The notes beneath the pieces were generated by a model. It was not told where the DNA came from and searched no databases. It saw only the letters and a program-made list of their open reading frames with translations. Positions 71 through 56,900 of a stretch of DNA of 64,000 bases are shown here, piece after piece. The stretch spans positions 1 through 64,000 of the forward strand of contig MU128915.1 in assembly GCA_014904985.1 (NCBI GenBank), in the 5' to 3' direction. How positions within the stretch are numbered: position 1 is the stretch's first letter; each line of letters starts with the position of its first letter. Made by a program: the position numbers and the translations under genes. The DNA is from Hydnum rufescens UP504. Its lineage: Eukaryota; Basidiomycota; Agaricomycetes; Cantharellales; Hydnaceae.

Positions 71-886
71 GATGCGCTTGACAAGCCTGGTCTGTATAAG
101 AGGCTTCCCCCTACAGTTGTACCGGGTGAGGTGGGCCTAGTCAGTTTTATTGACTCTGGTGATGCCAGTGCCCGCGATTCAGCCTTGTTGAAAGATGAAT
201 GGAGAGATGCTTGGTCAAATCTAATTTTTGTTGTTCGCGCATCAAAGGTCTATGACGAATACCTCCAAAAACAACTCAGTAATCTCTTCGACATCCTTAC
301 CGAGTCTAAGTACTTCGTACTCCAGTTTCCAATTGTAGCCCGCACTTGTTACAAAGCCTGCCATCACTGGTTCTCTGCCTTCTATGATCTCGAGAGTCCT
401 GAGTCCATAACGATGATTGAAAGCCTATTTGCGGAAGTGGCAGCAGAGATTAATCAAGAGGCAGTGATAGCAGCATCCATGCTGGCAATCCGTTCAGCGC
501 AACAGCCACTCCCATCTGTTCGTCCCCCTTGGGATTCACAGTTGTCTGGCCACATGTACGGTCAAGCTGCCAGGTCAGCTCCTGGCCATCAGAGGTCCTC
601 ATCCGGGTTATTTCGAGGGGGCAACGGGGCGAGGGCGTCCAATTCCCGTTGCCTTATATGTGGAGACGCTCATGTCGCCTCACTGTGCACTGGGAAGTCC
701 CCCAATGGGCATGCCATCAGTGTCGTCCATGAAGGCCGGAACCGTGTCGTTCGCAAGCGCGACAACCAACCATTTTGCTTCAATTTCAACATCCGTGGTG
801 GTTGTACCACCCAAGGCTGCAGTGCCTTGCACGAGTGCTCCCTCTGTGGCAGTGCACAGCACGGAACTTCTGCAGGAAGCTGCTGA
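71..886 (+). CDS. Gag-like zinc-knuckle protein of the YR retrotransposon (5' partial)
   Basis: The reading frame is open from 71 (after a TGA at 68-70) to the stop at 886. No convincing ATG lies at the left, so the protein may continue in an upstream exon outside the window. The N-terminal ~150 residues are helical and featureless. The C-terminal part carries two cysteine clusters: CLICGDAHVASLC and a longer C/H-rich block with FCFNFNIRGGC, HECSLCG and a further C. This arrangement recurs in capsid-like ORFs of basidiomycete YR elements. Presumed role: nucleocapsid packaging of element RNA. The 3' end overlaps the start of the RT frame. Confidence 0.6.
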   Translation, partial: DALDKPGLYKRLPPTVVPGEVGLVSFIDSGDASARDSALLKDEWRDAWSNLIFVVRASKVYDEYLQKQLSNLFDILTESKYFVLQFPIVARTCYKACHHWFSAFYDLESPESITMIESLFAEVAAEINQEAVIAASMLAIRSAQQPLPSVRPPWDSQLSGHMYGQAARSAPGHQRSSSGLFRGGNGARASNSRCLICGDAHVASLCTGKSPNGHAISVVHEGRNRVVRKRDNQPFCFNFNIRGGCTTQGCSALHECSLCGSAQHGTSAGSC

Positions 887-3800
887 GGCACACGACCTCG
901 TGGTCACTGTATATAAACATTCCGCCTTCCATGACAAATTGGTCCAGCATGACCTCCTCGATCATTTTCCTCTCTTGACACAGTACATAGAATTTGGCTT
1001 CCCGATGTCCATAAAGAATCCTCTTTCCCCTCGCCTCACGACCTTCGCCCCCCGCCACCATCCCGGAGCTTTCCTCCATGCGGACTTCATATCCAATTAT
1101 CTACAGGATGAGGAGAGGTGTGGTCGTGTGTCCAAACCCTTCCCGCGACACATTGTCAAACAAGCTCTCGGTCCATTCTATGCATCACCTTTGAATGTGA
1201 CTGAGAAGGCGCGAGATCCTGCCTTCCCAGATGTTCCTAGATGGTGGCTCGTCACGAATTGCTCTGCTAAGGATGCTGGTGTCTCTCTCAATGATCAGCT
1301 GGATGCTGATGACTACCCTACCACATGGGATGGTGCTGAGAGGATGGCTGCAATAGTAAGTACTAGTTCCCCCCCCCCCCTTTCTTCCTCATACAACCTT
1401 GCTGGTATAGAAGAAGGGTTGGGAGCTCCGATGACTGTCAAATCAAAATCTGGATCAGCCAGTGTGTGGATGGGAGACTGTATTTCTGTTGTTATTCGTT
1501 GGGCTGGTTTGCTTCAATGGTTGATCACACTCTGTAAGACGTGTATGGTGTTCAGTGGAGAATAGGAAGGGATATGGACTAGCTGTAGTCAATGATATAT
1601 CGTGTAGGATGCTTGTAGAAAGGCTTATACGTCTGTGATGCTTGTAGAAAGGCTTATACGTCGTGTGGGATGCTTATAGAAAGGCTTATACGTCTGGGAT
1701 GCTTGTAGAAAGGCTTATACAGTACGTCGTTCGTGTTGTGTTGGTCTGTTTACTGATATTTGTGTATTCTTGTTTATGTTCTCCTGGTCAAAATGCGGAT
1801 ATCTGTGGGTTATAGACTGGTCAGTGCTTGGTTAGTCTTGTTAGTATGTTTCTTTCTTCTTTCTTCAAAACCTGATACGTATTTCGTTATGCTTACTTTT
1901 CCTTGGATGTCCAGCAACTCTAACCTTAGGTCCTGCAACTATCCTTGGCTTTGGTGATTCGCGTAGAGGGCTACCAGTGGCTTTGTCTCAACAACCTTGA
2001 AGATGACTTAGCTCCAGATGGCTTATAGATAGACTGTTCTTTAGAGGCAAGCAGAAAAGTTGACAGTGGTTGACAGTAATGATTTCCAGAGAGGAGATGA
2101 TTGTGTGGGGGTACAGGAAATCTACCAGCTTTTATACCTTTCTGAAGGTGGCTGTGTTTAAGAAATATGACTCCCCCATGGGTGAGTCATATGTGAGTCA
2201 TAGGTGAGAACAAAAGAAAAATAACAAGATGATGTAATAATGCGGTCATAGCTGAGTCATTCATAAAGAGAACAAAAGGAATCATGAGGGGGGGTGATGT
2301 CACCAATTTGCTGAGCATGTGGAATGCTTGGAGCATGTGGTCACTGACCATGTGGAGCATTCTGGAGGCGAAATGAAAGGATATCTCCGGGTTTTGGAGA
2401 TTAATTTGAGCATAGTCCAGTGGTTAAGGTGTTTTGTTGTTGGTTGATAATGGGAACAAGTGCATAGGATGGGATTCGATGCAGAAACAGCAGTTTGCAT
2501 CCGTAATAGACGTTCTTGGTATCATTAGATGCGGATTTTTCACAGCTTTCTGGGCGCGGTGGTTCCGAGAAGATCCGGTGTAAACTGACAGAGAAATTCA
2601 TTTTTTACTGATGGGTGTTGATTCTGATAGTAATATCGCTCTGTAGAGTTCAGTTTTGATCTGTTCTTCGCGTGCTCAGTACCGTCGGATGCGGATTTTT
2701 TATATCTTTCTAAGCGCGGTTGTTCCGAAAGGATTGAATGCGAACTGACGGAGAAATTTGTTTTTTACTGGAAATTCCGGATTTTGGTAGTAAAATTGGC
2801 CTGGAGAGTGCAGTTCTGGTCCGTTCGACTTGTGTTTGGTACCGTTCGAAAGGTGTGAATTGTAGCTTTCTAAGAGTTATATGGGCGTACCTCTCCGATC
2901 AAAACTGACGGAGTTATAGAACGAATTCGATTTCCGCACGTAGCCGTAATTAATTTCGTAATTGGTCAGGTGATCCTCCAATGGCTGGAAGTGGTGTGAT
3001 TTCGCATTTTCTGATACTGGATGTTTTTATCTTCCACACCGGGCAAGTACCCGTGCATGGCACCGTATCCCATATGTCCTGCCTCGGGCAGCCTATGGAC
3101 AGGTACTGCAATGGCAGCCGAGCCAGTCCATACAGCAGTCATCTCTTAAGATGAACTTGCAACGCACGTGCATTCTGCGATGTCACACTGTGATCGTTAT
3201 CACTGCTTTCAGACGAGCTGCGTAGCTCATCTCTAACCCTAATTAGGTTACTGCTTGCCTGCAAGGCACTCAAATGGCAGTTGGCGATGTAGAAGCTGCA
3301 TACCACTGCTGTGGTTGGCGACCACTAGACAAGTTCAATATGGTCATAAAAGACATATCTGGCGACGATGCCTTCCGTATAAATCACACAGTACCCTTTG
3401 GTATAAGGCCCGGCGCTGGAATCTGCAGAGCTGTCCTAGACGCAGCCAAAGAGTTCCTTATTGCCGAAGGGATGGGTCCAATCGTGAAATGGGTTGACGA
3501 CTTCGGTTTCATCCGTTTCCCACTGACACAGGCCAGCAGAGGCTTCCCAGCTCTTACACAGACCACTCTCCACTTCTCTCCCTCCAATGTCATCATTGAC
3601 CTGCATACCCCCTTGGATGTTGCCCTCGCCGCCCTCCCCACCCCTATTTATTCCCTGCATCTCACTCCCCACAAAATCTCCTACACATACGCATATACCA
3701 TCCCAGACATCATTGCCTCTACCGAACCATTAGGTTTACCATGGGCTAGCTCCAAGTGGATCCCGTTCCAATGGGTAGCTACATATATTGGTTTCGCATG

Positions 3801-4581
3801 GGACCTCTGGAACAAACATGTTTATGTCCCAGATCTCAAACGGATTAAATACTACAAACATGTTGTCAACATACTGACTGTCACCACTAATGGAGGCCGC
3901 ACCCCGCTGGCCCCCTTGACGAAGGTTCATGGCTGCCTAGTCCATATTTGCTTCGTCATGCGACTCGGCTGTTCTCACCTGCCATCACTACAACGCACAA
4001 TCGAAGGCTATGCCAACCCCCATGTCCTACGCGCACTTTCAAACCGGGCACGGAGCGATCTCACGTGGTGGCGGGATCAACTTACTTCCCCTGGTGCCTA
4101 TTACTCCCTCCATGACCGCAGCCCCGCTGTCGATTGGAAAATCTCTGTTGATGCCTCTAAGAAATGGGGCATCAGCCTACGAGTGGACAATGCTTACATG
4201 GCATGGAAGTGGAAGGATAAGGCCCTTGGCTCTGGCGGTCGTGATATTGGCGGAGCTGAGAGTATTGCAATAGAATTCGTTTACCGCTATCTTCAAGCTA
4301 TCGGTATCCGCAACAAACGAGTTCTAGTCTGGGCAGACAACTTAGGATCCAATGCAGCCCATGACAAAGGTCGAGGCCGTAATATGTGGTCTAACGCTGC
4401 GATTCAGCGGGGCTGGGAGATCAGACATGCCTCTGGGCTTGAGTTAGATGTCCAGTACATTGCATCGGCCAATAACCCTGCAGATCAAGTATCACGCGGT
4501 GATTTCATTGGACTCCATAGGCTCGAGTGTGCGTTTCCTATTCCCGACGAGCTACTCCCATTCCTGAAGGAGTTTAACTGA
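852..4581 (+). CDS. Reverse transcriptase-RNase H of the YR retrotransposon, with a 1.9 kb intron
   Basis: Exon 1 is read in the frame running to 1355, ending ...ERMAAI. Exon 2 runs from 3247 to the TGA at 4579-4581. Splicing GTAAGT at 1356 to AG at 3245-3246 keeps phase and restores the expected RT sequence (GTQMAVGDVEAAYH). RT motifs seen: DVEAAYH (first catalytic Asp), PFGIRPGAG, and KWVDDF (the xDD box). The RNase H domain follows with all four acidic positions: VDASKKWG, GGAESIAIEF, ADNLGSNAAHDK and NNPADQVSRG. Role: copying element RNA into DNA and removing the RNA strand. The true start is unclear; the frame overlaps the gag frame, so translation may involve frameshifting or reinitiation. 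Confidence 0.75.
1607..1720 (+). repeat. Four-unit ~30 bp minisatellite
   Basis: Four near-identical copies of a unit containing GATGCTTGTAGAAAGGCTT followed by ATACGTC lie head to tail. Unit spacing varies by a few bases because of short TG/GTG differences at the joints. Confidence 0.8.
2408..2486 (+). repeat. tRNA-derived SINE-like sequence
   Basis: The stretch has a tRNA-like internal promoter layout: GCATAGTCCAGTGGTTAAGG resembles an A box, and GGATGGGATTCGATGC about 50 nt downstream resembles a B box. No complete cloverleaf can be drawn, so it is a SINE head or tRNA relic rather than a functional tRNA gene. Confidence 0.4.
2530..2910 (+). repeat. Three diverged copies of a ~160 bp block
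   Basis: Blocks starting near 2530, 2690 and 2845 share the same order of words: GATGCGGATTTTT, CTTTCT, GCGCGG, GTTCCGA, AACTGACGGAG and ATTTTTTACTG. The third copy keeps only CTTTCTAAGAG and AAACTGACGGAG. They look like an old tandem array within the intron. Confidence 0.55.
2946..3040 (+). repeat. 95 bp block shared with 11740-11833
   Basis: The segment from TAATTAAT through CTGGATGTTTTTATCTTCC and ending CACACC matches 11740-11833 with only scattered differences. It is probably the conserved 3' end of a dispersed element. The sequences on either side differ between the copies. Confidence 0.7.
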
Positions 4582-4585
4582 TTAA

Positions 4586-5938
4586 GTGACCAATGTACCC
4601 CACACACCGTAGTTCATAATAATCTGCCTGTTTTTGCGCACCTTGATTCCTTCAGTCTCTTCCCACCCATTCTGTCAGTTGGACGACAACCTGGCCCTAG
4701 TCATTTCGTTCTAACCCTGTCCCTATATCGTCCCTGTGTCCGAGCCCAGCATCGGATCTGTTCATGGTCCTCCCCACAAGTCATAGCAAAACGAGAACGG
4801 CTCATATGTAGCAACCCGCAGTTAGCTCTACAGCGTGCCCATGCCGAAAAGGTCCTCCTGGCAAGATGGGAGGAAGGCACAAGAACAGCATATGGTGCAG
4901 GCATCATCCGGTGGGCTGAGTGGTGTGAGGCCAATAAGATCAGCGAAGACTGCTGTCTCCCAGCTGATCCCGATCTACTCCTCTGCTTCATCACAGACTC
5001 AGCGGGCTGTATGGGCACTTCCGCAGTAGAGAACTGGCTGGCCGGCCTGTGGGCTTGGCACACCTTCCACAATTTTCCATTCCCAGGTGATACTCCTACA
5101 ATCCAGGCTGCAATAGTGGCTGTTGGTAAGCTGGCCCCAATATCCTCCAAGCGCGTGCCACGTCCTCCTGTCATGCTTGAGCATCTACATTAGAGATGAA
5201 ATGGATTTTTCAAACTCCTTCGATACAGCATTCTGGGCAGTCATATGTGTGGCCTTCTGGGGAATAGCTCGGCTAGGCGAAGTCATGGTTCCATCAGTCA
5301 ATCGCTTCATCCTTGGACGACACGTACACAAGGACACTGCCGTCCTGTGGTCCACCCATGGCGATGCTCAGTCAGTCTCCGTCCACATCCCATGGACAAA
5401 GACAACACAGCGGACTGGTGCAACACTAATCCTCACACACGAGGACGATTGCACATGCCCTTTCCGTGCTGTCCAGCAACAGCTACTCACAAATGCAGCC
5501 CTACCTTCGGACGCTCACTTCTTCGGGTTCCTAACCAGTGATGGCTGGCAACCAATGGTCAAACGGTCAGTCATCACTCGGTGTAACGAGATCTGGGCCA
5601 GGTACGGCCTGCAAGGCCCATCTGGTCATAGTTTCCGCATCGGCGGCACGACTCATCACCTAACAAGAGGCACAGATGTTAAAGTTGTCCAACAACTGGG
5701 TTGGTGGACCTCAGATGCATTCTACATATACTGGTGTAACATGCAAGCAATTATCCCACTTCATGTCCACAACGCAGCCCGCCGAGCCGACATCATCCAC
5801 AAGGTTGATGCCTTCCTACTCGATGCAAGCCCAGAAGTGAAGACGAGGTGGGAGGAGATTGAAAAGGCACGTGAGGAGATGAGCTCAACGCTCCCCCCAG
5901 TTAGAAAGAAGGCCCGGACCGGGAAGACTCATAGGTAG
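4586..5938 (+). pseudogene. Tyrosine recombinase of the YR retrotransposon, one frameshift
   Basis: The first part is open from 4586 (just after the RT-RNase H stop) to 5193 and carries the SAM-like core-binding half (LALQRAHAEKVLLARWEEG to RPPVMLEHLH). At about 5190 the frame shifts by one base. The catalytic half then runs from 5194 to 5938. Catalytic residues visible: Arg in GIARLGE, the HxxR box in HSFRIGGTTHH, a Trp at the second His position in LGWW, and the Tyr nucleophile in SDAFYIYW. Known role: integration of circular cDNA by site-specific recombination. The single frameshift could be decay or sequence error, since other genes here show similar indels. Confidence 0.75.
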
Positions 5939-11937: not shown

Positions 11938-12240
11938 TTACTCATTGTCAAATAGACTGGCCTTTTCCACCAAATCATCACAATTGATGTCCCCACACCG
12001 CAAAATACTGTTCAGTGTTGATTGATGAGAAGCCTGCTCCATCTGCATTTCTGTGAGGTCTGTTGCCCAGCCATCTGTGAAGTTCAGGCAATTCTTTTTC
12101 AACATAAACTTTAATGTCTGAAGGGCCTCCATAATTTTGGGTTTGAGATGACTGTGCTGCTTCATTATTATCTCTGAGCTTGAAGAAAAAAATGAAGATC
12201 TAGAAATTTGGGACTGGTGTGGGATTGAGACAATGACTAT
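11938..12240 (-). pseudogene. hAT transposase C-terminal fragment
   Basis: The minus-strand frame from about 12165 to 11938 reads HLKPKIMEALQTLKFMLKK, NCLNFTDGW and a short acidic tail. The word MEALQ.LKF.LKK..L.FT is typical of the dimerisation end of basidiomycete hAT transposases. Sequence up to about 12240 shows no further domain, so only the last ~75 residues survive. Confidence 0.5.
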
Positions 12241-13084
12241 TATGAGGACTCTGATGATTTATGAATTATTGTACAATGTCTATAGAGCCAGCTTGTTTTG
12301 GCTTCTATCTTGTATGTATGGAAGTTGTACTTCTTTCTCTTTCAAGGCTCTGGCAACATGTTTATCAATCTATATTAGAGGTAGTTTCAGCAGTATTGCA
12401 CACAGAACCCTAACATACAGTAAGAGTAGTATACAGTTAATGACAATATAAATGTTATTCGTGCGGACCAGGTGCATGCGGCGGTAAAGGAGAGGCAATG
12501 CAGAGGGTGACAATGATGACCACTCATCGTGACTACCACTCCTTTTGGAAACAGGGGATCACGTGCTTCTCGGATACATCCACATATGACCCTGACAACT
12601 TCAAGCTACAAGTCTCCTCTGTGCTATTTCTCAGGTCTGCCATGCATCGGAATCCAAGGGCTTTCATTTTGCATCAGATACAGGCAGTTCTGTTTTATTT
12701 TTACAATGTTTGGAGCCGATCCCACCCCCCAAATCAGTGAATCTACATACATGTTTTTGGCCAAAATTGGCCTCGAAACCAGTGACCCGGGATCCCCCCT
12801 ACTAGAGCTCGCAGGAGTCCTCCTGGAGCCTGATGGGGAAGCACTACAAGTCCAAAGGTTACTTAATGAGAGAAGGGGAGATGTGAAAGAATATTTATCG
12901 CTGTATAACATGTACAAGGACCTTAGGCACCTTATAGCTAGTAGGCAGCCTGAAGCAGTATATAGAGCTCCACCACCACTATCACCACCTGGACTTCGAT
13001 TCGGGTCTCAACTTCAGTGCGGGCCGAATTGGGACACCACAATTTGGTGTTCGGACATCCACACATATGAGAACCTGCCCAATC
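12241..13084. other. No gene supported
   Basis: An open frame on the plus strand (ATG at 12706, roughly 90 residues with a Lys/Glu-rich helical part such as NERRGDVKEYLSLYNMYKDL) is present but matches no family I know and runs into the terminal repeat of the foldback element. The rest is A/T-rich unique sequence. Confidence 0.3.
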
Positions 13085-13104
13085 CCAGGCTGGTCAGTCA
13101 AATT

Positions 13105-13159
13105 GGGGACCTAATTAGGTACCATTTTCGGGGCAGAAAATGGTACCTAATAGGTCCCC
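13105..13159. repeat. Left terminal hairpin of the foldback element
   Basis: Near-perfect hairpin, left arm GGGGACCTAATTAGGTACCA, loop containing GGGGCAG, right arm TGGTACCTAATAGGTCCCC. It is the inverted counterpart of 18268-18321. Outside it, TGGTCAGTCA (about 13091) is also mirrored beyond the right hairpin. Confidence 0.8.
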
Positions 13160-13541
13160 AGACAGTATGGCCAAAATACGGCCATTCCAATTCATTTCAG
13201 CCAATCCATGGCTGTGCTAGATTATATATTTATTTATTGTTATTATTATCATTATTATTATTATTATTACTACTATAATTATATACATATTATGCTATAT
13301 ACATATTATCCCCCCCCAGGGTCTGCCACCACAGGGGGGGCATGGTTCCTGCAGGTCACGCACCTGCATATACCCACCACACCCGAGTGGGGTCCATATG
13401 CCCCGGTCAGGGCCGGGTCCATTTGGGCGCTCCCTCGAGGGAGCGGATTTTCGTTCATGGGTGCTTGTTTGCGGTTTTCGTTTGCGGCGCGTCATTCGGC
13501 GGGTTTGTGGTTGGGGGTGTACATGAGTTCTGGTTCAGGAT

Positions 13542-13697
13542 CTAGAGAAATTTAAAATGAAAGATTAGTTGAACAGTAATGCAGCGCAAAAAGAGCAGCT
13601 TATGCTGCTCTTTTTGCGCCACAAGAATAAAAAATAAGAAGAAAAAGAAAACTGACCTTGCAGTACCCCACACCTGCTGCAGCGGGTGTCGGGTACT
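13542..13697 (-). repeat. Module L2 (hairpin A, donor, hairpin B, acceptor)
   Basis: On the minus strand: hairpin A 13697-13662 (one non-pairing change), donor AAG/GTCAGT at 13656, hairpin B 13619-13584 (GCGCAAAAAGAGCAGC stem, TTAT loop), branch-like CAACTAAT, acceptor CTAG ending 13542. Implied intron 115 nt. Confidence 0.75.
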
Positions 13698-13845
13698 GAG
13701 TCCCTGTACTCCGGTTCGTACATACGGCGGGTTGTATAGGTCCTCCCTGCGGTTTTCATTTGTGGGGGGTCGTTCGTGGGTTTCGTTCGCGGCGTGTCAT
13801 TCTGTGGGTTTATGGTCGGGGGTTCAGGCGGGTTCTGGCCAGGAT

Positions 13846-13997
13846 CTAGAGAAATAACAATAGGTTAGTAAAAAATGAATGAATGCAACGCAAAAAGAGC
13901 AGCATATGCTGCTCTTTTTGCGCCACGAGAATAAGAAATGAAACAATAAAAAATACCTTGTAGTACCCCACACCCGCTGCAGCGGGTGTGGGGTACT
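13846..13997 (-). repeat. Module L3
   Basis: Minus strand: hairpin A 13997-13962 is a perfect 36 nt palindrome (arm AGTACCCCACACCCGCTG), donor AAG/GTATTT at 13956, hairpin B 13922-13889, branch TACTAAC at 13870-13864, acceptor CTAG ending 13846. Implied intron 111 nt. Confidence 0.8.
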
Positions 13998-14126
13998 GGG
14001 ACTGTACTCCGGCTCATGCACGGCGGTTTGTGCGGGTCCCCCCAGGACCCTGTCGCTCGGGTGTCGATAGGTGGGGTCAGGAGGGGGGGGGTTGCGTCGG
14101 TATTCGTTGGTGCGAGAAGTAAAGAC

Positions 14127-14274
14127 CTATAATAGAAAGTTATAAATTAGTTAAGAATTAAGCACCACGCAAAAAGAGCAGCTTTCGGTGCTCTTTTTGC
14201 ACGGTTGTAGCTACGGGGGCAGTGACTCACCTTAAATAGGACCACACACCCACCATGGCGGGTGTGTGGTTCCT
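14127..14274 (-). repeat. Module L4
   Basis: Minus strand: hairpin A 14274-14238, donor AAG/GTGAGT at 14230, hairpin B 14200-14169 with a shortened upper stem, branch-like TTAACTAAT, acceptor ATAG ending 14127. Implied intron 104 nt. Confidence 0.7.
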
Positions 14275-14284
14275 GGGGCCCTCA

Positions 14285-14600
14285 TATGGCGCGGTCGCGT
14301 CCTCGTTTGGCGCGTTACCATACGTCGCGTCCTCATTTGGTGTGTTGCCGTGTATCGCGTCGTTTGGCATTGCCGTGTATTGTGCCATTTGGCGCGTTGC
14401 CGTGTGTCGCGTCGTTGGCGTGGTGCCGTGTGTCGTGTCATTGGTGTGGTGCCATGTGTCGCGTTGTGGGCATGGTGCTGTATGTCACGTCCTTGGTGCC
14501 ATGCCGTATGTCGTGTGGTGGGCGCATTGCCATATGTCGCGTCATTTGGGGCGTCCTCATTCGGGGCATTGCCGTTTGGGCCCTCATTTCATGGGTTTTC
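14285..14600 (-). repeat. Degenerate ~30 bp repeats forming the inter-module sequence
   Basis: Words like TTGGCGCGTTGCC and GTGTCGCGTC recur about ten times with drift. This is the left-arm equivalent of the CGAAACGAA/CCACACC-rich stretch at 16140-16230. Confidence 0.6.
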
Positions 14601-14627
14601 GTCGTGCCTTAGACCCCAGGTCTCAAT

Positions 14628-14769
14628 CTAGAAGAATACAAGATATGTTAGTAAAAAGATTCAAAGAGGCGCAAAAAGAGCAGCAAAGCTGCTCTTTTTG
14701 CGCCGTTGTATCTACAAGCAAAAAAAACTCACCTTATGACCACACACCCGCTGTGGCGGGTGTGTGGTC
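14628..14769 (-). repeat. Module L5
   Basis: Minus strand: hairpin A 14769-14738 (GACCACACACCCGC arm), donor AAG/GTGAGT at 14732, hairpin B 14704-14668 (GGCGCAAAAAGAGCAGC arm), branch TACTAAC at 14653-14647, acceptor CTAG ending 14628. Implied intron 105 nt. Confidence 0.8.
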
Positions 14770-15365
14770 GTACGCTTGCCTTTTCGGGCGGTTCGTTGTT
14801 GTGGTTGCGGAGATGAAAAAGAAGATGTGAAATTCAACGCCGGCAATTGCCGATACTCAAGAAGCGCCCAAGTGCTGGCGCCGCAAGCACAGCACACATC
14901 AATAGCAAGCATGTAGATATGGAATAGATAATATAATAAATATTATCCAATAAAATGCGAAGAAGAAGAAATAATGATCAGAGCTCAATAAGGCATGAGA
15001 TGGCTAATTGCAGAGTGGATTGGGCCACTTCTATGCATCAGAATTGGCCCAAATTTAAATTATGGGTGTGGTGGTCGCACGCTTGCCTTTTCGGGCGGTT
15101 GTTGTTGTGGTTGCGGAGATGAAAAAGAAGATGCGAAATTCAACGCCGCAATTGCCGATACTCAGGAAGCGCCCAAGTGCTGGGCTACAGCACAGCACAC
15201 CATCAATAGCAAGCATGTAGATATGGAATAGATAAATATATAATAAATATTTATCCAATAAAATGCGAAAAGAAGAAAATAAAGAGTCAGAGCTCAATAA
15301 GGCATGAGATGGCTAATTGCAGAGTGGATTGGCCACATCTATGCATCAGAATTGTTCCCAAATTT
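14762..15365 (+). repeat. ~300 bp tandem duplication on the left palindrome arm
   Basis: 14762-15060 and 15070-15365 are direct copies: both run from CGCTTGCCTTTTCGGGCGG through AAGCATGTAGATATGG and AGAGCTCAATAAGGCATGAG to CAGAATTG. A third, inverted copy forms the right palindrome arm (15545-15840). Confidence 0.85.
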
Positions 15366-15845
15366 TAAATATAGTAATTTTATATATACACTCTACATGG
15401 GCGATTGATTATCTCGGATGATTCTCGCATTTTTCAAATTTTCACGCCTTCAATTCCCTATTTAGGGAATTGAAGGCATGAAAATTTGAAAAATGCGAGA
15501 ATCATCCGAGATAATCAATCGCCCATGTAGAGTGTATATATGGTGTTGCTATATTTAAATTTGGGCCAATTCTGATGCATAGAAGTGGCCCAATCCACTC
15601 TGCAATTAGCCATCTCATGCCTTATTGAGCTCTGACTCATTATTTTCTTCTCCTTCGCATTTTATTGGATAAATATTTATTATATATTATCTATTCCATA
15701 TCTACATGCTTGCTATTGATGTGTGCTGTGCTTGCGGCGCCAGAACTTGGGCACTTCCTAAGTATCGGCAATTGCCGGCGTTGAATTTCGCAACTACGCA
15801 GCCACACTCAGCAACAGAAAGGCAACCGCACAACCACGACACAAC
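15065..15845. repeat. Central palindrome of the foldback element
   Basis: The centre is at 15461-15462. The inner arms (15382-15460 and 15463-15541, 79 bp each) differ at about one position. The outer arms continue to about 15070 and 15840 with small gaps. A transcript or single strand through this would form a very long hairpin. Confidence 0.9.
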
Positions 15846-15912
15846 AGCAACAGCAACAGCAGCAACAGCAGCAACAGCAGCAACAGCAGCAACAGCAGCA
15901 GCAGCAGCAGCC
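15838..15912 (+). repeat. CAG/CAA microsatellite
   Basis: A run of (CAACAG)n grading into (CAG)n sits on the right arm between the palindrome and module R1. The left arm has no equivalent expansion. Confidence 0.85.
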
Positions 15913-15934
15913 CTAGCGCACAACCACGACCACA

Positions 15935-16076
15935 TGACCACACACCCGCTGAGGCGGGTGCATGGTCATAAGGTAAGTTTTGTCTCAATACATAGAATAG
16001 TGCAAAAAGAGTAGCGCAAGCTACTCTTTTTGCACTGCTGTGAATTTTGATACTAACATAGCCTTTATTATTCCAG
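15935..16076 (+). repeat. Module R1
   Basis: Hairpin A 15935-15968, donor AAG/GTAAGT at 15973, hairpin B 16001-16034 with a compensated change (AGTAGC paired with GCTACT), branch TACTAAC 16051-16057, acceptor CCAG ending 16076. Implied intron 104 nt. Confidence 0.8.
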
Positions 16077-16264
16077 ACCAAAACCAAAACAAACGACAGG
16101 CCACCCAATGAGTGGCCCAGGCCCCAGTGGAAATACGCAAAACCACACGAAACGAAACGAAACGAAGCCAAATGAAACCACACCCAACCCCACGCCAAAC
16201 CCAATGAAACCACACCACACCCAATGAAACAATGCCAAGCAGAAATGCCAGAGGTGGCCATGCG

Positions 16265-16404
16265 AACCACACACCCGCTGCGGCGGGTGTGTGGTTCTAT
16301 ACAATGTAAGTAATCTTGTGCACCCCTAGCGGCGCAAAAAGAGCAGCAAATGCTGCTCTTTTTGCACTGGTTTTAATTTTTTAACTGATAATGTTTTATT
16401 CTAG
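16265..16404 (+). repeat. Module R2
   Basis: Hairpin A 16265-16296 (perfect, CGGC-type loop), donor GTAAGT at 16306, hairpin B 16334-16365, branch-like TTAACTGAT, acceptor CTAG ending 16404. Implied intron 99 nt. Confidence 0.8.
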
Positions 16405-16503
16405 GTATCACCACAAATGAAGACCCGTGGAGCGAGCCCCCCCCTGAGATCAAACTCCTGCAAAGTGAGACCCATGAGCGACAATGCGCCAAACGAAGAC
16501 ACG

Positions 16504-16652
16504 AACCACACACCTGTGGTAGCAGGTGTGTGGTTCTATACAAGATAAGTAATTAGTGCACCCCCCCCCCTCACCAATGCAAAAAGAGCAGCCCTTGCTG
16601 CTCTTTTTGTGTCTGTTTTAATTTTTAACTAAGAAATTCTCTATTATTCTAG
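16504..16652 (+). repeat. Module R3 (donor ATAAGT)
   Basis: Hairpin A 16504-16535 with a compensated change (CACCTG paired with CAGGTG). Donor position reads ATAAGT at 16545 instead of GT. Hairpin B 16579-16609, branch-like TTAACTAAG, acceptor CTAG ending 16652. Confidence 0.7.
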
Positions 16653-16782
16653 GCTGTCGCCTGAACCACCTGCCAAACCAACCCCCTCTCCGCGAAATGA
16701 CAACGCAACGCGCCAAGGAACACCCCCCAGACAAAACCCGGACCGAGAACACACGACAGGGTCACAGGGACCCCAGACGAAC

Positions 16783-16908
16783 CACACCCGCCAAAGCGGG
16801 TGTGTGATAATTCTAAGGTAAATACAACCACACAAAAGGAGCAGCGTACGTTGCTCCTTTTGCGTGGCTCTTCTTTTTTTTCTTTTACTAACATATTTAC
16901 TATTCTAG
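16783..16908 (+). repeat. Module R4
   Basis: Hairpin A 16783-16804, donor AAG/GTAAAT at 16818, hairpin B 16832-16863 with the variant stem AAAAGGAG/CTCCTTTT, branch TACTAAC 16886-16892, acceptor CTAG ending 16908. Implied intron 91 nt. Confidence 0.8.
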
Positions 16909-17043
16909 ATGGTCAAGCAAAATGACAACCCGCCGAACGAACCCGCCCAACACCCCCCTGGGAATGATGATGCGACCCACCAAAACAACACATGCCAAAT
17001 GAAACACACCAACGACGACTGGCCAGACCAAACCCAAGAGAGT

Positions 17044-17190
17044 ACCACACACCCGCTTCAGCAGGTGTGTGGTAATTTTAAGGTGAGTACAACCGCGCAA
17101 GAGGAGCAGCGTACGCTGCTCCTTTTGCGTGGCTTCTCTTGTTTTTTTTTTTTTTACTAACGTATTATTTATTATTTTATTTTGTCATCT
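17044..17190 (+). repeat. Module R5 (acceptor lost)
   Basis: Hairpin A 17044-17073, donor AAG/GTGAGT at 17083, hairpin B 17096-17129, T-run then TACTAAC 17155-17161. No AG follows within the next 40 nt; the acceptor position reads TTTGTCATCTGG. Confidence 0.75.
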
Positions 17191-17308
17191 GGACCCAACA
17201 CCCGCAACCCCGACCAACATGAACATGAGAGAACGACGACCCACCTGCCAAACAAATCCTGCAAACAGCAACGAGCTCAAAACCACTGACGCAAGCCCCG
17301 ACAAACCC

Positions 17309-17451
17309 CACACCCGCTTCAGCGGGTGTGTGGTAATTTTAAGGTGAGTACAACCGTGCAAGAGGAGCAGCATACGCTGCTCCTTTTGCGTGGCTTTCCT
17401 GTTTTTTTTTTTTTTTACTAACGTATTATTTATTATTTTATTTTGTCATTT
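17309..17451 (+). repeat. Module R6 (acceptor lost)
   Basis: Hairpin A 17309-17330, donor AAG/GTGAGT at 17344, hairpin B 17357-17390, TACTAAC 17416-17422. As in R5 the acceptor position reads TTTGTCATTTGG. R5 and R6 are close copies, pointing to recent tandem duplication. Confidence 0.75.
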
Positions 17452-17566
17452 GGACCCAACACCCGTGACCCCGCCGAACGAACACGGGAGAACGACGACC
17501 CGCCGCCAAACGAATCCCAGCGAACGGCAACGAGTTCGAAACCACGACGCAAGCCCCGGACGAACC

Positions 17567-17704
17567 CCACACCCGCTCGAGCGGGTGTGGTAATCTTTAA
17601 GGTAAGTATATATGTACATGTCCGACTATGCAAAAGGAGCAGCAGGGGCTGCTCCTTTTGCCTGGTTTTTCTTTCTTTAACTAACTTATTATTTATTATC
17701 ATAG
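17567..17704 (+). repeat. Module R7
   Basis: Hairpin A 17567-17590 is a perfect 24 nt palindrome centred on CTCGAG. Donor AAG/GTAAGT at 17602, hairpin B 17630-17661 (AAAAGGAG stem), branch AACTAAC 17679-17685, acceptor ATAG ending 17704. Implied intron 103 nt. Confidence 0.8.
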
Positions 17705-17817
17705 GTATTCTTCTGAACCCGCATCCCCCAACCGAAGCCACGACCCCGCCGAGTGAAAACACGCGACCATGGGTGAGGGGGAACCCCAACGGTGAAGCAC
17801 GAAATAATGTCCCCGGT

Positions 17818-18003
17818 ACCACACACCCGCCCAAGCGGGTGTGTGGTGCTACTAGATACTAGATAGTTGTTATTTTAATTTTTTTGTTCTTTGATTCACA
17901 TGGACAGTACCACACACCCGCTAGAGTGGGTGTGTGGTGCTACTAAGTAGTCTTTTTTTATTTATTTCTACGGAGTACCACACACCAGAGTGGGTGTGTG
18001 GTA
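17818..18003 (+). repeat. Three further A-type hairpins without B partners
   Basis: Hairpins at 17818-17847, 17909-17938 and 17977-18002 all have the ACCACACACC arm. They are separated by A/T-rich spacers and are not followed by hairpin B, a branch site or an acceptor. This is the decayed or immature end of the right array. Confidence 0.75.
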
Positions 18004-18267
18004 TAATTTTAAATAAATAAATAAATAATAAGAATAAAACACGGGACTCCTGAATGAAACCCCGCTGACCCGGGGTAGCATAAGTATAATATAGTGATAA
18101 TAAATAAATAATTATAAATGGAAGATATTATCCCTGATAAGCCCGTATGGCCTGCTGCAAGTCTGAGATTCTCCAAGTCCCAGTTTCGGCCAATTTTCGG
18201 CCATTTTGGCCAATTCTGGTTCAGGAGGTGAAATCATAAAAATGGCCATTTTGGCTGAAATAGTGAT

Positions 18268-18321
18268 GGGACCTACTTAGGTACCATTATCTGCCCCAGA
18301 AGTGGTACCTAACTAGGTAGG
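18268..18321. repeat. Right terminal hairpin of the foldback element
   Basis: Left arm GGGACCTACTTAGGTACCA, loop TTATCTGCCCCAGAAG, right arm TGGTACCTAACTAGGTAGGC. Its reverse complement lines up with 13105-13159, including the loop orientation. Confidence 0.75.
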
Positions 18322-18340
18322 CTTAGATGACTGACCAAGG

Positions 18341-18806
18341 TGCTGTGGGATACTGATTGGTCGCTTATAAAAGTTGCGAGGAGCGCGCGGAGGAAGTTTC
18401 GAGGAGTATGATAAGTGGGATGAGAGGCGGGACGATGGATGAGAAGAGTTTGAAGTCAGTGAGTCAGTGGAGGAGTGGAATATATCACGTAATTGCTGAT
18501 CAGTCGGGGACCTAGCCTGATTCGCAGTCTTTTCCTTGGGATTGCGATTCGAGTCGGCTTCCTGTCGCAATGCGAACAGGTCTGATATAGTAGTACCTGC
18601 CAGTTGACTCCGTGAGCTTAAGGACCACTGTGCTCATTTCTGCCTAGTCCCCTCCAGGCTGCTGGACTGCCTCTCCGTCCCCTCCTATCCTCATTATCTC
18701 ATTCTTGCCTGGATTCTCCTGGACTTAGCCAGACTTACACCGGACTTAGCCGGAATTATCTGTGTTTATATTTGTTTGGTGCTCTTGTCGCAGCGTGGCC
18801 CTGACA
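18341..18806 (+). repeat. LTR-like sequence
   Basis: Has a TATA-like CGCTTATAAAAGTT at about 18362 and ends TTGTCGCAGCGTGGCCCTGACA, very like the end of the LTR-like stretch at 11735. No reverse transcriptase or partner LTR is found next to it, so it would be a solo LTR or remnant. Confidence 0.35.
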
Positions 18807-18949
18807 TTCTCTCACACAATATTTCCACAGCATAAAATTTCCGCCATTGCCAGCAAGTTTAGGGATTGAGGCAAATAGCTGCCCAGTTGGATCTGCAGGA
18901 GTTCCACCAGTAGTTGTTGGAGCTAATGAGCCCATAACCTGTCAAGAGA

Positions 18950-19101
18950 CTAGTAAAAAGGTTCTCAGTCTCGTAATAGAGGACTGAGTGTTATTGTAGA
19001 TATACCTAGTAAAAAGGTTCTATATACAATATGTAAGAAGAAGAATAAGAGGAACAGTATTTCTACTTGGCTCACCTCAGTCTCATAATAGAGGACTGAG
19101 G
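18950..19101 (+). repeat. Duplicated word plus duplicated small hairpin
   Basis: CTAGTAAAAAGGTTCT occurs at about 18950 and 19003. The small hairpin CTCAGTCTCGTAATAGAG/GACTGAG occurs at about 18964 and, with one change, at about 19077. Confidence 0.6.
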
Positions 19102-19999
19102 AAAGCCTTCGGGTAAATCTGATATTCTATACAGGTGTGTGGGACAGATATAGTATATATATCCATAGGTGACATATGGCTAGCCTTGATTTCCTACACC
19201 AAATACCTTTCAGGGGCCCCCACTGAACCACGCTCAAGTGGCTCACCTGGGCTACCCCTGGAGTCAATCCCACCTCCCTCACTGCTTGTGGCACATATGC
19301 AGGTGAGCAATTTCACTGGAATGGATGGTACAAACATTACAAAATCATGTTCAATGACTTGGACCTTGAGGATATGGGTATTCTCCTGTTAGAATCCTGA
19401 CACCATGCTGGGGGGCAATGTAATATAGAGCCTTAATTCTTAAGGTATATACTTGTAACATCCCATTTGTACCTTACATAATAGCATGGCCATGAGGATT
19501 CTAAGTCCCAGCAGTGCTGGAATCAAATTACTCTTTTGCCTGGACCTCATAGCTCATGCATGAACTGCAAAACCAATGTAGCAACACTGCAACTACACAA
19601 CCAAGTCACATAATGACTCAACCACACCAAGACCCATGATCTGTCACCATAGAGCACAGGGCAGAGACAGATAAGGGGAGTCACATACAAGTGCAACTCA
19701 GTTAAGTAAGTACATTCTTCTAGTGTACCTGCTGACTACTCCTTCACCCCCATAGATAGTAGCTGAGCCCTTTGGCCAGCTACTACCATCCTCCCTTGCT
19801 CATTCCCCCCCTTCCTCTTGCTTCTCCCCCATCCAAAGTGAAGCCAGTGCTTAGCTTCATTCATGGTCCTCCCACTTGAAGCCAGTGCTTAGAGTGGTTG
19901 GATTACTTTCCTCTGTCTGTTCACAGGTTGCTCGAATCCACCTTGTCTAACAATGACAAATACTATGGTCCCTCAAAGTCAAGGACCACATTATTACAA
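19102..19999. other. No complete gene seen
   Basis: A short plus-strand piece at about 19295-19395 (frame giving EQFHWNGWYKHYKIMFNDL) looks protein-like and ends at a TAG, but has no neighbours in frame. GAAGCCAGTGCTTAG occurs twice near 19840-19890. The rest is non-coding. Confidence 0.35.
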
Positions 20000-21310
20000 C
20001 TATGCTATGGTACTTGGGAGCAACCCAACTGACTTCTCTGTCAAAGGGGCTGGTTCACCATACTCTTGAATTACTTTGGCTGAATCCACCATCCATTCAG
20101 ACACAGCATGAGCCCAAACCTCATCTTCATCAGTGCCCATTCCTTCTTCTTTACCTGGTGGTGTGTCATGACTGCAAAGTTGGTGCTCTGAGGGTGGAAC
20201 CTGTCTGCCACTGCCTCCTCTCCTGTGTCTTCCAGGCTGTTGTGATTGGAGACCTTGTGATCCTCCAGGGGCATCAGACCCATCACTATCACTATCACCA
20301 TGATTGTCTCCACCAGGTCCACATCCACTGCTGGGTCCACCACATGGCCCCTTGTGAGTGTGCCATGGTTTCCACTTGGATAGGGCATCAATGACTGTCT
20401 GGGGCAGGACTTGTGATAGTTCTTGGTGATAGGTGGGAATTTTGGAGGAAGCCAGGCAAAGGAACATGAAGAATTGCAGAAGGCCAGTGAGGGTCAGAAG
20501 TTGGAAGGAATGGAGCCTATAGACAATAGGCTACAAGAAAAATTTTAATCAGCTGTTGGGAGGTGTCTGCTATTAATACATACTTTCCCATCCTCCCAGG
20601 TTGCAACACAAGCCCATACTGTCCCACCCTCAGCATAGCAGCCAAATACAAGCTGTTTGTCAAGTCCAAGAATTCTCTTTTGAAAGAGGCCAGAACTCAA
20701 GTCATATATGAGTTGGTTTCTGCCTGAAGCTGATGTTGAGAAGCATTTGCTCTCTAAGGCAAAGTGAAGGACATGGAGGGCTGTTGAAACTGCCTCAGAA
20801 AGACAAGGGCATTCCAGACATTGCACCAGTCCCAGACCAGGAATGTGATCCCTCAGGGTAAGAACCACAACTGCATCAGCAATTGCAGTGGGGATACTCC
20901 TTGTTGTTGATGGTGCAAGGTACAGTTGAGCCTCCCTGCTGGAATGATTTGATTGCCATTCAGAGCAAAACACAGAGTGATTTGAAGGGAGAAAAACTGA
21001 CTACATAGATCTATCATAGGGATCATTTTTCCCTTGCCCCAAGACATAATCCACCAGTTGCTCCATTGGTCTGGCACCAGTCAGCCCCTTTGAGGGTTAT
21101 ATATAGTTTGTCGCTCTGCAAGATGCTGCATCAAATCCCAAACAGATTGGATTGTGAGTAGGGAATCATGAAGGGTCTCATTGTATGGGGTGTTCTTGGT
21201 GCCTTCGGTATTGATGCCCCGGAGTTCCGCCAGGAAGTCCTCATGGAGGCCAGGGTGAATGTACCCAGGAGATTTCTGGTGAAATCATCAGATAATGAGG
21301 TGGGAGGACA
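20000..21310 (-). pseudogene. Unrecognised protein gene remnant
   Basis: On the minus strand a protein-like frame starts near 21310 (GYIHPGLHEDFLAEL, HDSLLTIQSVWDLMQHLAER), shifts frame near 21080, passes an in-frame stop near 21005, then runs clean from 20973 to 20584. A good 53 nt intron (donor GTATGT at 20583, acceptor TTGTAG ending 20531) joins ATWEDGK in phase to PIVYRLHSFQLLTLTGLLQF. The frame ends at a stop at 20000. The middle is globular (KQLVFGCYAEGGTVWACV); the C-terminal third is Gly/Asp/Ser-rich and probably disordered. I do not recognise the family. The frameshift and stop suggest a pseudogene. Confidence 0.45.
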
Positions 21311-43170: not shown

Positions 43171-44544
43171 TTAGAGATTGTACAATGGTAAAATCCGCGT
43201 AAGATCGAGCGACTGTCGGCAGAGGGGACATTCGGCCTGCCCGGTAAATAGCGCAGAGAGAGCACAGGAATAACGGGCATGAGGTTGAATCGCAACGCTC
43301 CCGAAACGGCGAAAGGTGCATACCTTTTCTCTACCCCACCCTACCACACAAGTCCAGCAGAATACGTGCCCACATTCGGTCACAGAGCTGGCGGTACGTT
43401 CTTCCAGGCACAACGCGCACTTGCGCCCGGCACGTACAGGGGGCGGAAGGGATTCGACGTCGAGTATTGTTCGATCTCCCCAGGCGTCTTTTTCATCCTC
43501 AGATGGTTCACTAGAGGGCGAAATAACCGAAGGGACAAGACTTGATATCGCGCTTTGATCGATGTAAGTGGCCTTTGACAAGGCGACATCTTCGTCAGAT
43601 TGGGTGTTAGATCGTGGAATTAGAGTAGACAGAGATGGGAGGAAAGGAGAAAGGAGGGTAATTAATCGATATAATAGTCGTGTGGAGAGGAGAATTCCAA
43701 GGAACGAATATGAAGGAGGTCGCGAGTTTGGATCTGGGGCTACGGCAGACATCTAGAATGGGTGATTGTTTAGTCATGGGGCAGCTTCTGTGGAGGGTAA
43801 CGAGCGATGAAACTTACATGCCGGATTCGTAATACTCGGTTTGTGAGGCTGTAATATCTTCCAGTTAGATAGAATAACGCTAAATTAATCTCAGTGAGCG
43901 CTTCGAAAATGTTTGGTAGTGCGTTCAATGTGTTCGATATATATCCGTTAGGCTGGGACATGTGCCGAGTGAGTCGCGAGAGCAAGTACGATGGTAGGGT
44001 GAGAAGAAGAACGAGACCCGCACGAAGCTACAGGAAGATCATACGAGAGCGTCTAGTTGGTTCGTAAGCAAGCAAGAGGAAGGGGATTGGCACCTTGAAA
44101 GATGGGGGTCGTCGGTCAATCATACTAATAGTGCTTATATCGACGTACTCCTCCCCTAATGTTTGAATCCCTGGAATCGAGAATACCCAATCGTCATCGT
44201 GTCTCTGCATATTCTAGGGTGAAATCTTACCACGCAGAGTTGTGAACCCATAGTAGACTACTTTGCTTAGAAACTCCACTTCTTTGTCCCACCGGGTCAA
44301 CCAACGAGTACCTACAGCAACAATCCACTTGTTAATATGGCACCTAACGGATCCTAGCTGATATACCTAGCCAAGATCTAAGCACATTTTCAGTCTCCTC
44401 GCGAAGACGAAACACGCTAAAGAGATCTTTCTGGTGGGCACGGACTGCAGCATGAAATCAGCACCAGTGAATTCAGTCCGACCCCGTTTCGTTCAACTGA
44501 CTGATTTGTGGTTGAGTAGCTCGGGGTATTGGAGGTATAGACAT
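43171..44544 (-). CDS. PEX10: Peroxisome biogenesis RING E3 ligase Pex10
   Basis: Start at 44544 (MSIPPIPRATQPQI). After splicing: IRAHQKDLFSVF, REETENVLRSWLGTRWLTRW, KEVEFLSKVVYYGFTTL, GIQTLGEEYVDI, a membrane stretch AGLVLLLTLPSYLLSRL, ALTEINLALFYLTGRYYS, PNSRPPSYSFLGILLSTRLL, and the C-terminal C3HC4 RING: CALCLEERTASSVTECGH, VFCWTCVVGW, then ECPLCRQSLDLTRILPLYNL at the stop. Known role: with Pex2 and Pex12 it ubiquitinates the Pex5 import receptor at the peroxisomal membrane. At least six short introns, including one inside the RING. The frame reads cleanly. Confidence 0.9.
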
Positions 44545-53968: not shown

Positions 53969-56900
53969 TTACAAATTGAACATTGAACGTGCAGTTGCGT
54001 GCGGAACACAACAGCTGCGTACGGGCACTGATGAGCAGACATTCAGGTGAATAAGTAATGAACTTACGAAGTGCAACTAAGGCAACATAAATTGTCATCA
54101 CTATCACGTATATGATCCCATATTTGATGACCTATAGGATCTTGCTTAGCGAATGTAGGCCGATTTGATTTGCACCACTCACAATGGCACGTCGTTGCCG
54201 CTTTTGCTTGATGGAGTACAAGGGTGCGCGAATCTGCTTGGAAGGATGCAGCCAGACTACGAAGAATTGTTAGTACATGCACCATTACTGCCAGACCAAA
54301 TGGTTACATACAAAGCACTAGAAGAAAGCGCAGACCGACGTCAGGAGGCAATCGTCGAACAGGAAGATAACACTCACAGGTTGTGTGTAGTCGATCAATA
54401 TAGGGAATGATTACAACTGGCGTCATGAGCAGTAGAAGGAAATGTCCGAGGAGGAAGTCACCGCTCCATAAGGAAAGCTCGATGATTTTGACGATATATT
54501 CTCGAGCTGGTTGTGATAGAGCGTGTTTTCCAAGACTTCGACCGTACCATTTCCCTGTCCACCATGCCCGATTCGTCTCATCGTGCTTGAATTCGCGTGA
54601 CAAGAATACAGAAATGGCCACTTTGTGGGTTGCACGCAGCACTGAGATAGTAGCGATCAAGCCAAGCACTGCGTGCGATACATCCCACAGCTCGAGGAAC
54701 CACTACAACGGCAATTCAGCACCCAGAAATCAGCGAAAACGAAGCTGCAGACACCTACCAAGAATTCGAGGAACGCAATCATCCCTGGAGACAAAATCAG
54801 GTCAGATAGCACCTGAAACGCAGAGCTAGCTTTACGGACCAATGACGGAGAGAACATGAGCAAGAGTGGCCATAACCGCGCCGAAGGAAGCACAACAGCC
54901 GGCCAACAGGGGACCAAAGAAGACAGATGTGAGGAACATAACCATCAAAATTGCAGCATTCCAAACAATCGGACCGAAAGCGACGATTGCAATACGAATG
55001 AGAGGGGAGCCTGCAGTCTGCCCTGCAGGTCCCGGGAAAGACTTGACGAAAATATATGCAATGACGAAGAGAGTTGCGTAAGCGATAGGGAACAAGATCT
55101 CGGACACGATGACATTTCGCCACTCCGCGCGCGGGACATCACCCGACAGTTTCTCAGATGGATGCCCTAGACGTCTGCGCTTGTACCCGGTGATATTGAT
55201 CCTAGACAACCGACAGTAACCAATCCACGAGTTGGCGTGGGACCGTGAGTTGCCGCGCGACATCCATCGAAGGAATTCGCGATAATCGATGATGAAATCG
55301 GCGAAGGCGAACTGATGAGGGTTGAAGAGGAATGGAGCGATGCACAAGGCGAGCACGGTGATCCAGAAATAAATGAGATGGGGAATCCAAATTGCGAGCG
55401 TGGCGTAGAGGAGTAAGATTAACGTCCGCATGCCGAGGTATATACTTGGGCCAGCGAATCGTGAGTACAGGATACTGAAGGAAATCCGAGTTGTAGCGAA
55501 ACCTCGACCAGTCGCTATATACCGAGCACCACCAAAGGTCAAGTTGGACAAGATGGAGTGTGTGTATATTTGGGTGGAGAACACCTCGAACACTGGCGAC
55601 AGCGACAGGAATTGCTTTCCCAACCGAAGGATTGCTCTCCCCGTCCCTCTTTCCACCAATTCTAATTAAGGTGATCAACTCATGAAAATGCTTGCTCGAC
55701 ATAGAAAGAACGAACCTTGCAAGAAAAGAGGCAAGAAAGAGATAAAGAACACCAAGAAGATACTGATGATGCAACGCCGGATCCAGTCGAACACGGGTAC
55801 CAAGTTATAGCAACCAGCCTGTCCCCGATTACTAGGATTATTTGTATCGAACTTGCAAACAAGGAGTGACTTGTTCAAAGTGCCCAGATAAACGACTGGA
55901 CATATTTGTCAGATATATCATAGGTAGAAGCGAGAACATGACTTGACTTACGACACAACATGAACACCTGGACGGAGAGAATGACGAGGATGTTGTTGAT
56001 TTGGAAACCAGGGTGTCCGTAGTAGAATGTTAGGAATCGATCGATAGGGAGCTGACTTCCCAGGTAGTAGTATTCTCGGCTGAGCATTTGCTCTCCCATA
56101 CCCGTTCCGATCTTGGTTTGGAAATTGAGGATCGTCCCAAAACCGAGATCACGACCTTTTCCGCATTGATAGTACTCGGAGTGTTTGATACGTCCACCAC
56201 GACCGAAGGCATTCATACCGGCAAAGATATCTTCGTTGAGATGCAGGCCTTTTTGCGCTTTCGATACACCACCACGGGTGGTCATAAAGGTCGCATTGAG
56301 GAAATCAGGGTGACCATAGTGCAACTTCCCACCGATCCAGGCCAAGCCACGAGCAGCTAGCGTTCCGAACGTTTGTTCCTTTCCAGCCGCGAGATCTCCA
56401 AGGATACCTATACTCTCTGAAAAAATATATTCGCGAGCACCGACAATAGCCACAGGGGATCTTTCCAGTTCCTTTGGACTCCACTGAGTGTAAGGATTCT
56501 TTGTCGAGGTGCCAAATTCTTCAAATTCGCCAAGGACGTTGCGGATCTTAAGACATTCCTCGAGATAGTTATCCTGGTTGGCATCGATGAGCTGAAGATA
56601 CTCGCCACGGTAGAAGATGAGGGCTTGATTCTGATTGTCGGATTTACCGTCTCCGAGAATCGGGTTGCCAGGGAGTTCGACACGAAATTTCGGTCGCCTC
56701 CTCCCTGTCTCAGGAATGAACTCTGAATGCCCATCAATGAGTGCGGAGAATAGGCGTGACTCCCCCCCTTCCTTATTGGCAGGTTCCTCATCCAGGTACG
56801 CAATCTGCAGATCGGGATAGGCACGAAGAAGGAATTCGGCGTTTTCGTATTCCTCCTGGTTGAACTTGGAGTATCTTTGCATAGAGACGACGAACTTGAA

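Follow-up and report, generated by a model that had tools for sequence, protein, structure and literature searches.

A high-copy transposon family of Hydnum rufescens with an interior of two outward-facing arrays of intron-like modules

Non-autonomous DNA transposons are thought to require only their ends. Foldback elements such as FB and Galileo have a palindromic layout with repeated units in their arms, as does Tm1 in the available part of its description, and non-coding host genes of the UHG/small nucleolar RNA (snoRNA) type combine non-coding exons with structured introns. Introners, in the excerpted text of PMC9860276, are transposon DNA with splice signals. For DNA transposons, excerpts of Kojima 2025 (PMC12730594) give Kyakuja CA..TG ends and a target-site duplication (TSD) of 7 bp, Zisupton and Dileera a TSD of 8 bp, Plavaka one of 2–3 bp and hAT7 of rust fungi one of 7 bp. 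KDZ1 of Cryptococcus, a transposase-coding element of the KDZ superfamily, is ~11 kb long with 241-bp terminal inverted repeats and an 8-bp TSD, according to an excerpt of PMC12810828. Here we analysed the first 64,000 nucleotides of contig C7 (MU128915.1; this whole stretch is referred to as the window) from the hedgehog mushroom Hydnum rufescens UP504 (assembly 63.2 Mb, 539 contigs), and describe an element that resembles each of these systems in part.

Like published Kyakuja, the Hydnum element belongs to a family with 7-bp TSDs and CA..TG termini, and its left terminus is common with that of a KDZ-bearing element in the same genome. It differs from Kyakuja in having no transposase gene and an interior of intron modules, and it has a short imperfect terminal repeat, whereas the two published elements with 7-bp TSDs and CA..TG ends that were compared have none. 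With KDZ1 it would share the transposase superfamily, but neither the length, the long terminal repeats, the TSD size nor the coding capacity. Unlike foldback elements, it has arms with spliceosomal signals, diverged units and the left terminus of a KDZ element. Unlike introners as described in the excerpted source, its modules, each with donor, branch site and acceptor, are arrayed within a larger element. Unlike host genes of the UHG/snoRNA type, the modules are borne on a transposon, and every match in an Rfam search of window positions 12000–20000 fell below the gathering score. Searches of the open-access literature showed no described element of such layout; the kind of transposon is known, and the intron-module interior was without a match in those searches.

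The element begins at 13086 with CAGGCTGGTCAGTCA and stops at 18342 with TGACTGACCAAGGTG, so that the whole unit, 5'-CAGG...GGTG-3', occupies 13086..18342 (no strand assigned). These limits, common to the 16 left and 14 right ends that could be aligned, lie 1–2 bases from those proposed in a preliminary description drawn from the window alone. Flanks diverged immediately outside the aligned ends, and among the left ends one (the second in C40) deviated in its first bases. The left terminus, CAGGCTGGTCAGT (13086..13098, + strand), and the right terminus, ACTGACCAAGGTG (18330..18342, + strand; reverse complement CACCTTGGTCAGT), form a 13-bp imperfect inverted repeat with 10 of 13 positions matching. 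The exact 15-base termini occurred 320 times (left) and 352 times (right) in the genome, with none for either control; allowing one mismatch, the right terminus was found 481 times and its reversed control 5 times. The H. rufescens genome thus holds hundreds of intact or broken copies of a high-copy mobile family.

Target duplications were sought around 20 end pairs chosen among the listed ends and in seven further regions; exclusion of C318, in which the ends did not follow the expected order, left 26 copies with both ends. Exact duplications flanked 13 of these (7 bp in eight, 8 bp in five), and two further copies had a duplication with a single mismatch, while a score of at least 5 was reached in 7 of 650 mismatched-pair controls. 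Because an eighth matching base in 5 of 13 copies is about the quarter expected by chance, 7 bp is the best estimate of TSD size. Where no duplication is present, recombination between copies may be the reason. Cut-and-paste mobility, as reflected in the many copies, exact ends and target duplications, is well supported, in agreement with the mobility proposed from the window copy.

The interior of the window copy is laid out around a central palindrome (15358..15565, no strand), identified by inverted-repeat comparison. Its axis lies at 15461/15462, and its arms (15358–15460 and 15463–15565) are 92% complementary. Each arm carries an outward TATATAT box, which together with the symmetry makes the palindrome a candidate divergent promoter. 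Four modules on the minus strand lie to the left and seven on the plus strand to the right, all directed outward. We found the same head-to-head centre 25 times, in 22 of the 31 regions read, and an assembly artefact is therefore very unlikely. The 151 modules that passed the strict splice-signal test described below included 108 that could be assigned to a centre at most 3.2 kb away, of which 103 pointed outward and 5 inward; 8 lay further off, and 35 were in regions without a found centre.

Near the ends lie a left (13105..13159, −40.3 kcal/mol) and a right (18268..18321, −26.6 kcal/mol) terminal hairpin (no strand), each of which folds on itself; the two are also mutually complementary (88% over 42 nt). 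The preliminary description had recognised these hairpins, the palindrome and the division into four and seven outward modules, and all were borne out. It had named an absence of other copies, a lack of conserved ends and an artefactual palindrome as grounds for abandoning its account, and none of the three applies. Its term "foldback element" was not retained, as no long, uniform inverted repeat makes up the arms, the terminal repeat is short and imperfect, and the left 15 bases are common with a KDZ element. Strong inversion was restricted to the centre and the terminal hairpins, while the module arms matched at 71–89% over pieces of 42–76 nt (25 longest pairs).

Each module follows the order palindrome A, donor, hairpin B, TACTAAC-like branch site and acceptor, with flaws in 3 of 11. 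By eye, 8 of the 11 window modules have a full GT, branch and AG, and 5 passed a strict GTRAGT test. The intron-like parts on the minus strand, placed by their splice signals, are L1 (14628..14732; GTGAGT, B hairpin, TACTAAC, TAG), L2 (14127..14230), L3 (13846..13956; GTATTT donor) and L4 (13542..13656; GTCAGT donor). On the plus strand, R1 (15973..16076), R2 (16306..16404), R4 (16818..16908; GTAAAT donor) and R7 (17602..17704) were placed by splice signals and RNA folding, and R3 (16545..16652) by splice signals. The module plan proposed in the preliminary description held for the eight complete modules; it failed in R3, whose donor ATAAGT has AT in place of GT, and in R5 (17083..17180) and its near-copy R6 (17344..17440), both on the plus strand and delimited by module comparison with an arbitrary 3' limit, which have no AG acceptor. 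Pattern searches located 14 A copies in the element, such as that of R1 (15934..15966, no strand), and 11 B hairpins, such as that of R1 (16001..16034, + strand). Near the right end, three A palindromes (17815..18002, no strand) are accompanied by neither B nor donor. Genome-wide, exact A stems numbered 935 and exact B stems 2350, with none for either reversed-pattern control.

We then examined the splice signals around the 319 B hairpins in the 31 regions. A strict triad was present on exactly one strand at 151 of the 319 and on both strands at none, compared with 95 of 5710 random positions and 15 of 3020 shuffled flanks. With relaxed donors, one-stranded signals accompanied 238 of 319 hairpins and two-stranded signals a single one, against 162 of 5721 random positions. 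Spacing was narrow: in the 10–90% range, the donor lay 29–34 and the branch 19–21 from B, and the intron measured 99–109 nt. When intron signals were searched without regard to hairpins, 113 of the 117 stretches obtained held a stem of at least 11, against 0 after shuffling; the 117 include many mutual copies and reduce to 54 distinct cores. Donor, branch and acceptor thus occur in order on one strand, as in spliceosomal introns. RNA folding of six intron stretches gave z-scores of −3.3 to −7.2 (−7.2 for the R1 intron), with the two left-hand stretches cut 9–12 bases off the intron limits. Between paralogous modules, A (identity 0.79) and B (0.84) were conserved, whereas the spacer exons (0.51) resembled shuffled sequence (0.49). 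Among close copies, transversions were rare in B (0.0034), donor (0.0030) and acceptor (0/240) compared with the rest of the intron (0.0156).

The two repeated structures differed in character. Four-base loops of B fitted GNRA on the sense strand in 46 of 106 cases and on the antisense strand in 1, and B loops were A-rich on the sense strand. In the B stem, double changes placed T-A for C-G at position 4 in 8 of 54 cores and G-C for A-T at position 8 in 6. Palindrome A had no GNRA loops (0/96) and no loop bias; its broken pairs were G-U in 50 cases versus A-C in 61 and lay mostly at its CpG, with the four kinds of change occurring 19, 19, 15 and 18 times. Because these broken pairs match deamination of a DNA palindrome, A appears to be a DNA site. 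We therefore read A and B as not equivalent, B behaving like an RNA stem within an intron and A like a DNA palindrome. Among distinct A cores, CpG-to-TpG/CpA change was balanced between strands, which suggests cytosine methylation of the elements.

The spacer exons look non-coding, as had been supposed from the window copy, and no protein encoded by the element could be recognised. Three-base periodicity was not significant in any of six spacer exons (in the lowest case, 108 of 2000 shuffles reached the observed value), and indels in multiples of three made up 18/61, 13/48, 2/18, 0/38, 0/10 and 0/41 in the six. A spliced non-coding RNA, which the preliminary description had suggested, is plausible, though unproven.

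Which transposase could move the family was approached through its termini. KDZ domain PF18758 had at least 154 matches in the genome, and a KDZ-bearing element was identical to the window family in 15 of 15 left-terminal bases. The left end of this KDZ element had 12 long matches, at least six of which had a KDZ domain, invariably on the opposite strand, at a distance of 1.75–2.7 kb from that end; one of these six (C391) was without the first 26 bases. A seventh, shorter match (C76) had the domain 1.56 kb inside, again on the opposite strand. This KDZ element, distinct from the window family, is represented by two left ends without the family's sub-terminal box (C5:442634 and C57:62343; L092/L093), which agree with each other at 97.3% identity from CAGG onward and have unrelated flanks; further copies start at C130:167875 and C157:83434. 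Screening six KDZ loci (L084–L089, with 1.5 kb flanks) for family ends gave one left end, outside the gene. The family also has the CA..TG termini and the 7-bp TSD of Kyakuja, with 8 of 13 exact duplications precisely 7 bp long; ending at 7, these eight depart from the 8-bp TSD of hAT elements, a comparison that leaves hAT7 (7 bp) unaffected. No transposase-like open reading frame (ORF) was seen by eye in the window copy, which can therefore be at most a non-autonomous KDZ/Kyakuja member. A KDZ transposase is therefore the probable mover of what is probably a non-autonomous family.

Two longer copies, L082 and L083 (8.9 and 8.7 kb), were considered as autonomous copies and set aside, as by eye no transposase was seen among their listed ORFs, no family search having been made; their interiors contain multi-kb N runs. 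At C45:1130–1232, C268:63184–63286 and ~17 other places, similarity to the KDZ left end (84–87% identity) was confined to its first ~100 bases. Additional non-autonomous families, with different interiors, probably account for these places. A variant subfamily has a left end (CAGGCTGGTCAGCCA) at L094:207–261 (C5:447006), beside the KDZ element, and variant ends are present also in L038 and L039.

Taken together, we give slightly better than even chances to a non-autonomous, Kyakuja-like KDZ cut-and-paste transposon whose interior consists of two outward intron-module arrays around a palindromic centre. Under this explanation, a transposase of KDZ type would be supplied in trans from elsewhere in the genome, and RNA polymerase II transcripts would start outward from the divergent central promoter. 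These transcripts would be spliced at each module, hairpin B drawing the donor towards the branch site, while the A palindromes would serve as DNA sites, possibly for the transposase. As to what the element might gain, our best guess, a tentative one, is that clean splicing of its own transcripts shields it from spliceosome-triggered silencing; the guess is prompted by the finding that stalled spliceosomes can trigger small interfering RNAs in the basidiomycete Cryptococcus (an excerpt of PMC6643885, citing Dumesic 2013). More broadly, and just as doubtfully, this could be an "inside-out" transposon, in which two divergent rows of hairpin-assisted introns are kept since splicing benefits the element, through silencing escape or stable intron RNAs, with KDZ acting in trans.

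Several observations weigh against this explanation or parts of it. No TSD was found in 11 of the 26 copies, the window copy included, and C65b, one of the 13 with an exact TSD, is situated in A-like sequence. The KDZ link consists of the left terminus and the duplication size, the right terminus of the KDZ element lying outside the sequence compared, and the hAT dimer domain is also abundant, with 90 matches in the genome. The CAGG..TG ends, which are similar to hAT termini, and the 7-bp TSD, which hAT7 of rust fungi makes according to the excerpted source (PMC12730594), would fit a hAT7-like transposase as the mover in place of KDZ; we consider this quite unlikely, as a KDZ-bearing element has the same left-terminal bases, although no search was aimed at hAT elements with these ends. 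For splicing, which is read from sequence signals and is unproven, the conservation between close copies is uneven: transversions at the branch site (0.0206 versus 0.0156 in the rest of the intron) indicate no extra constraint, transitions in B (0.057) exceed those in its surroundings (0.031), and transversions in A (0.0232) exceed those in the rest of the exon (0.0157). Exons evolved faster than introns among close copies, owing to CpG decay; as a sign of selection this was rejected, since it vanished after CpG removal and outside CpG context held in only 12 of 20 copies. GNRA was the commonest loop in 10 of 25 flank lineages defined at 80% identity, but only 5 lineages remain at 75%, and the GNRA loops may be inherited from a single ancestor. 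The wobble asymmetry of B was dropped as evidence, because position 1, where a CpG may lie, accounts for half of its 12 G-U pairs.

The lack of extra constraint at the branch site would suit an array acting at the DNA level, in which A and B are both palindromic subterminal repeats bound by the transposase or by some host protein, the splice motifs being functionless relics. The absence of RNA strand bias in A, and its occurrence without B near the right end, fit such an array as well. We nevertheless regard it as rather unlikely, given splice signals that keep fixed distances from B on one strand only and B loops that are A-rich and GNRA-like on the splice-sense strand. Gene models bear on the matter in both directions. 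A 158-aa frame is open across the right-arm exons, and as a query against Hydnum gene models it matched BS47DRAFT_1370135 (E 1e-24), which in the best-matching copy joins module exons, omits a B intron and restarts near the acceptor; the genome annotation used transcriptomes when available, according to part of PMC7550596. The donors of this model are apparently in the right arm of A and not GTRAGT (junctions approximate), and a second model, BS47DRAFT_1369935, matches weakly (E 0.08). Because this second model is weak and the branch site is no more constrained than its surroundings, the case for a spliced KDZ-mobilised element is slightly weakened, and that for the DNA-level array very slightly strengthened. 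The open frame and the two models could instead point to a remnant or active gene for a repetitive Thr/Pro/Arg-rich protein, but several exons are T-poor, so that stops are rare through composition, and the lack of significant periodicity and the low share of three-base indels make such a gene scarcely credible. Single modules copying into host genes as new introns, as introners do, are very improbable too. The modules are complete introns and transposon-derived introners are known (in the excerpted text of PMC9860276), and among the matches listed a few exact B stems seem isolated (C2:7606 and C4:534013, for example, have no second exact stem for several kb around). Throughout the 31 regions read, however, the modules are arrayed, although the lone-looking stems fall outside those regions; the earlier label of an intron-generating introner is thus not supported.

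If a spliced transposon is the right explanation, the retention of donor, branch, acceptor and intronic hairpin across modules with dissimilar spacers suggests that splicing may belong to the transposon life cycle. For basidiomycetes, this raises the question of whether good splicing protects a transposon. With 2350 exact B stems, the genome also provides some two thousand naturally occurring copies of a single intron hairpin for the study of intron structure.

Elsewhere in the window, frames at 71–5938 (+ strand) resemble, by eye, a reverse transcriptase followed by a tyrosine recombinase, as in a DIRS-like retroelement. On visual inspection alone, frames at 55875–58697 (− strand) resemble a 1,3-beta-glucan synthase gene. 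A PEX10 reading frame lies at 43171–43752 and matches BS47DRAFT_1287934 at 85% over the whole query.

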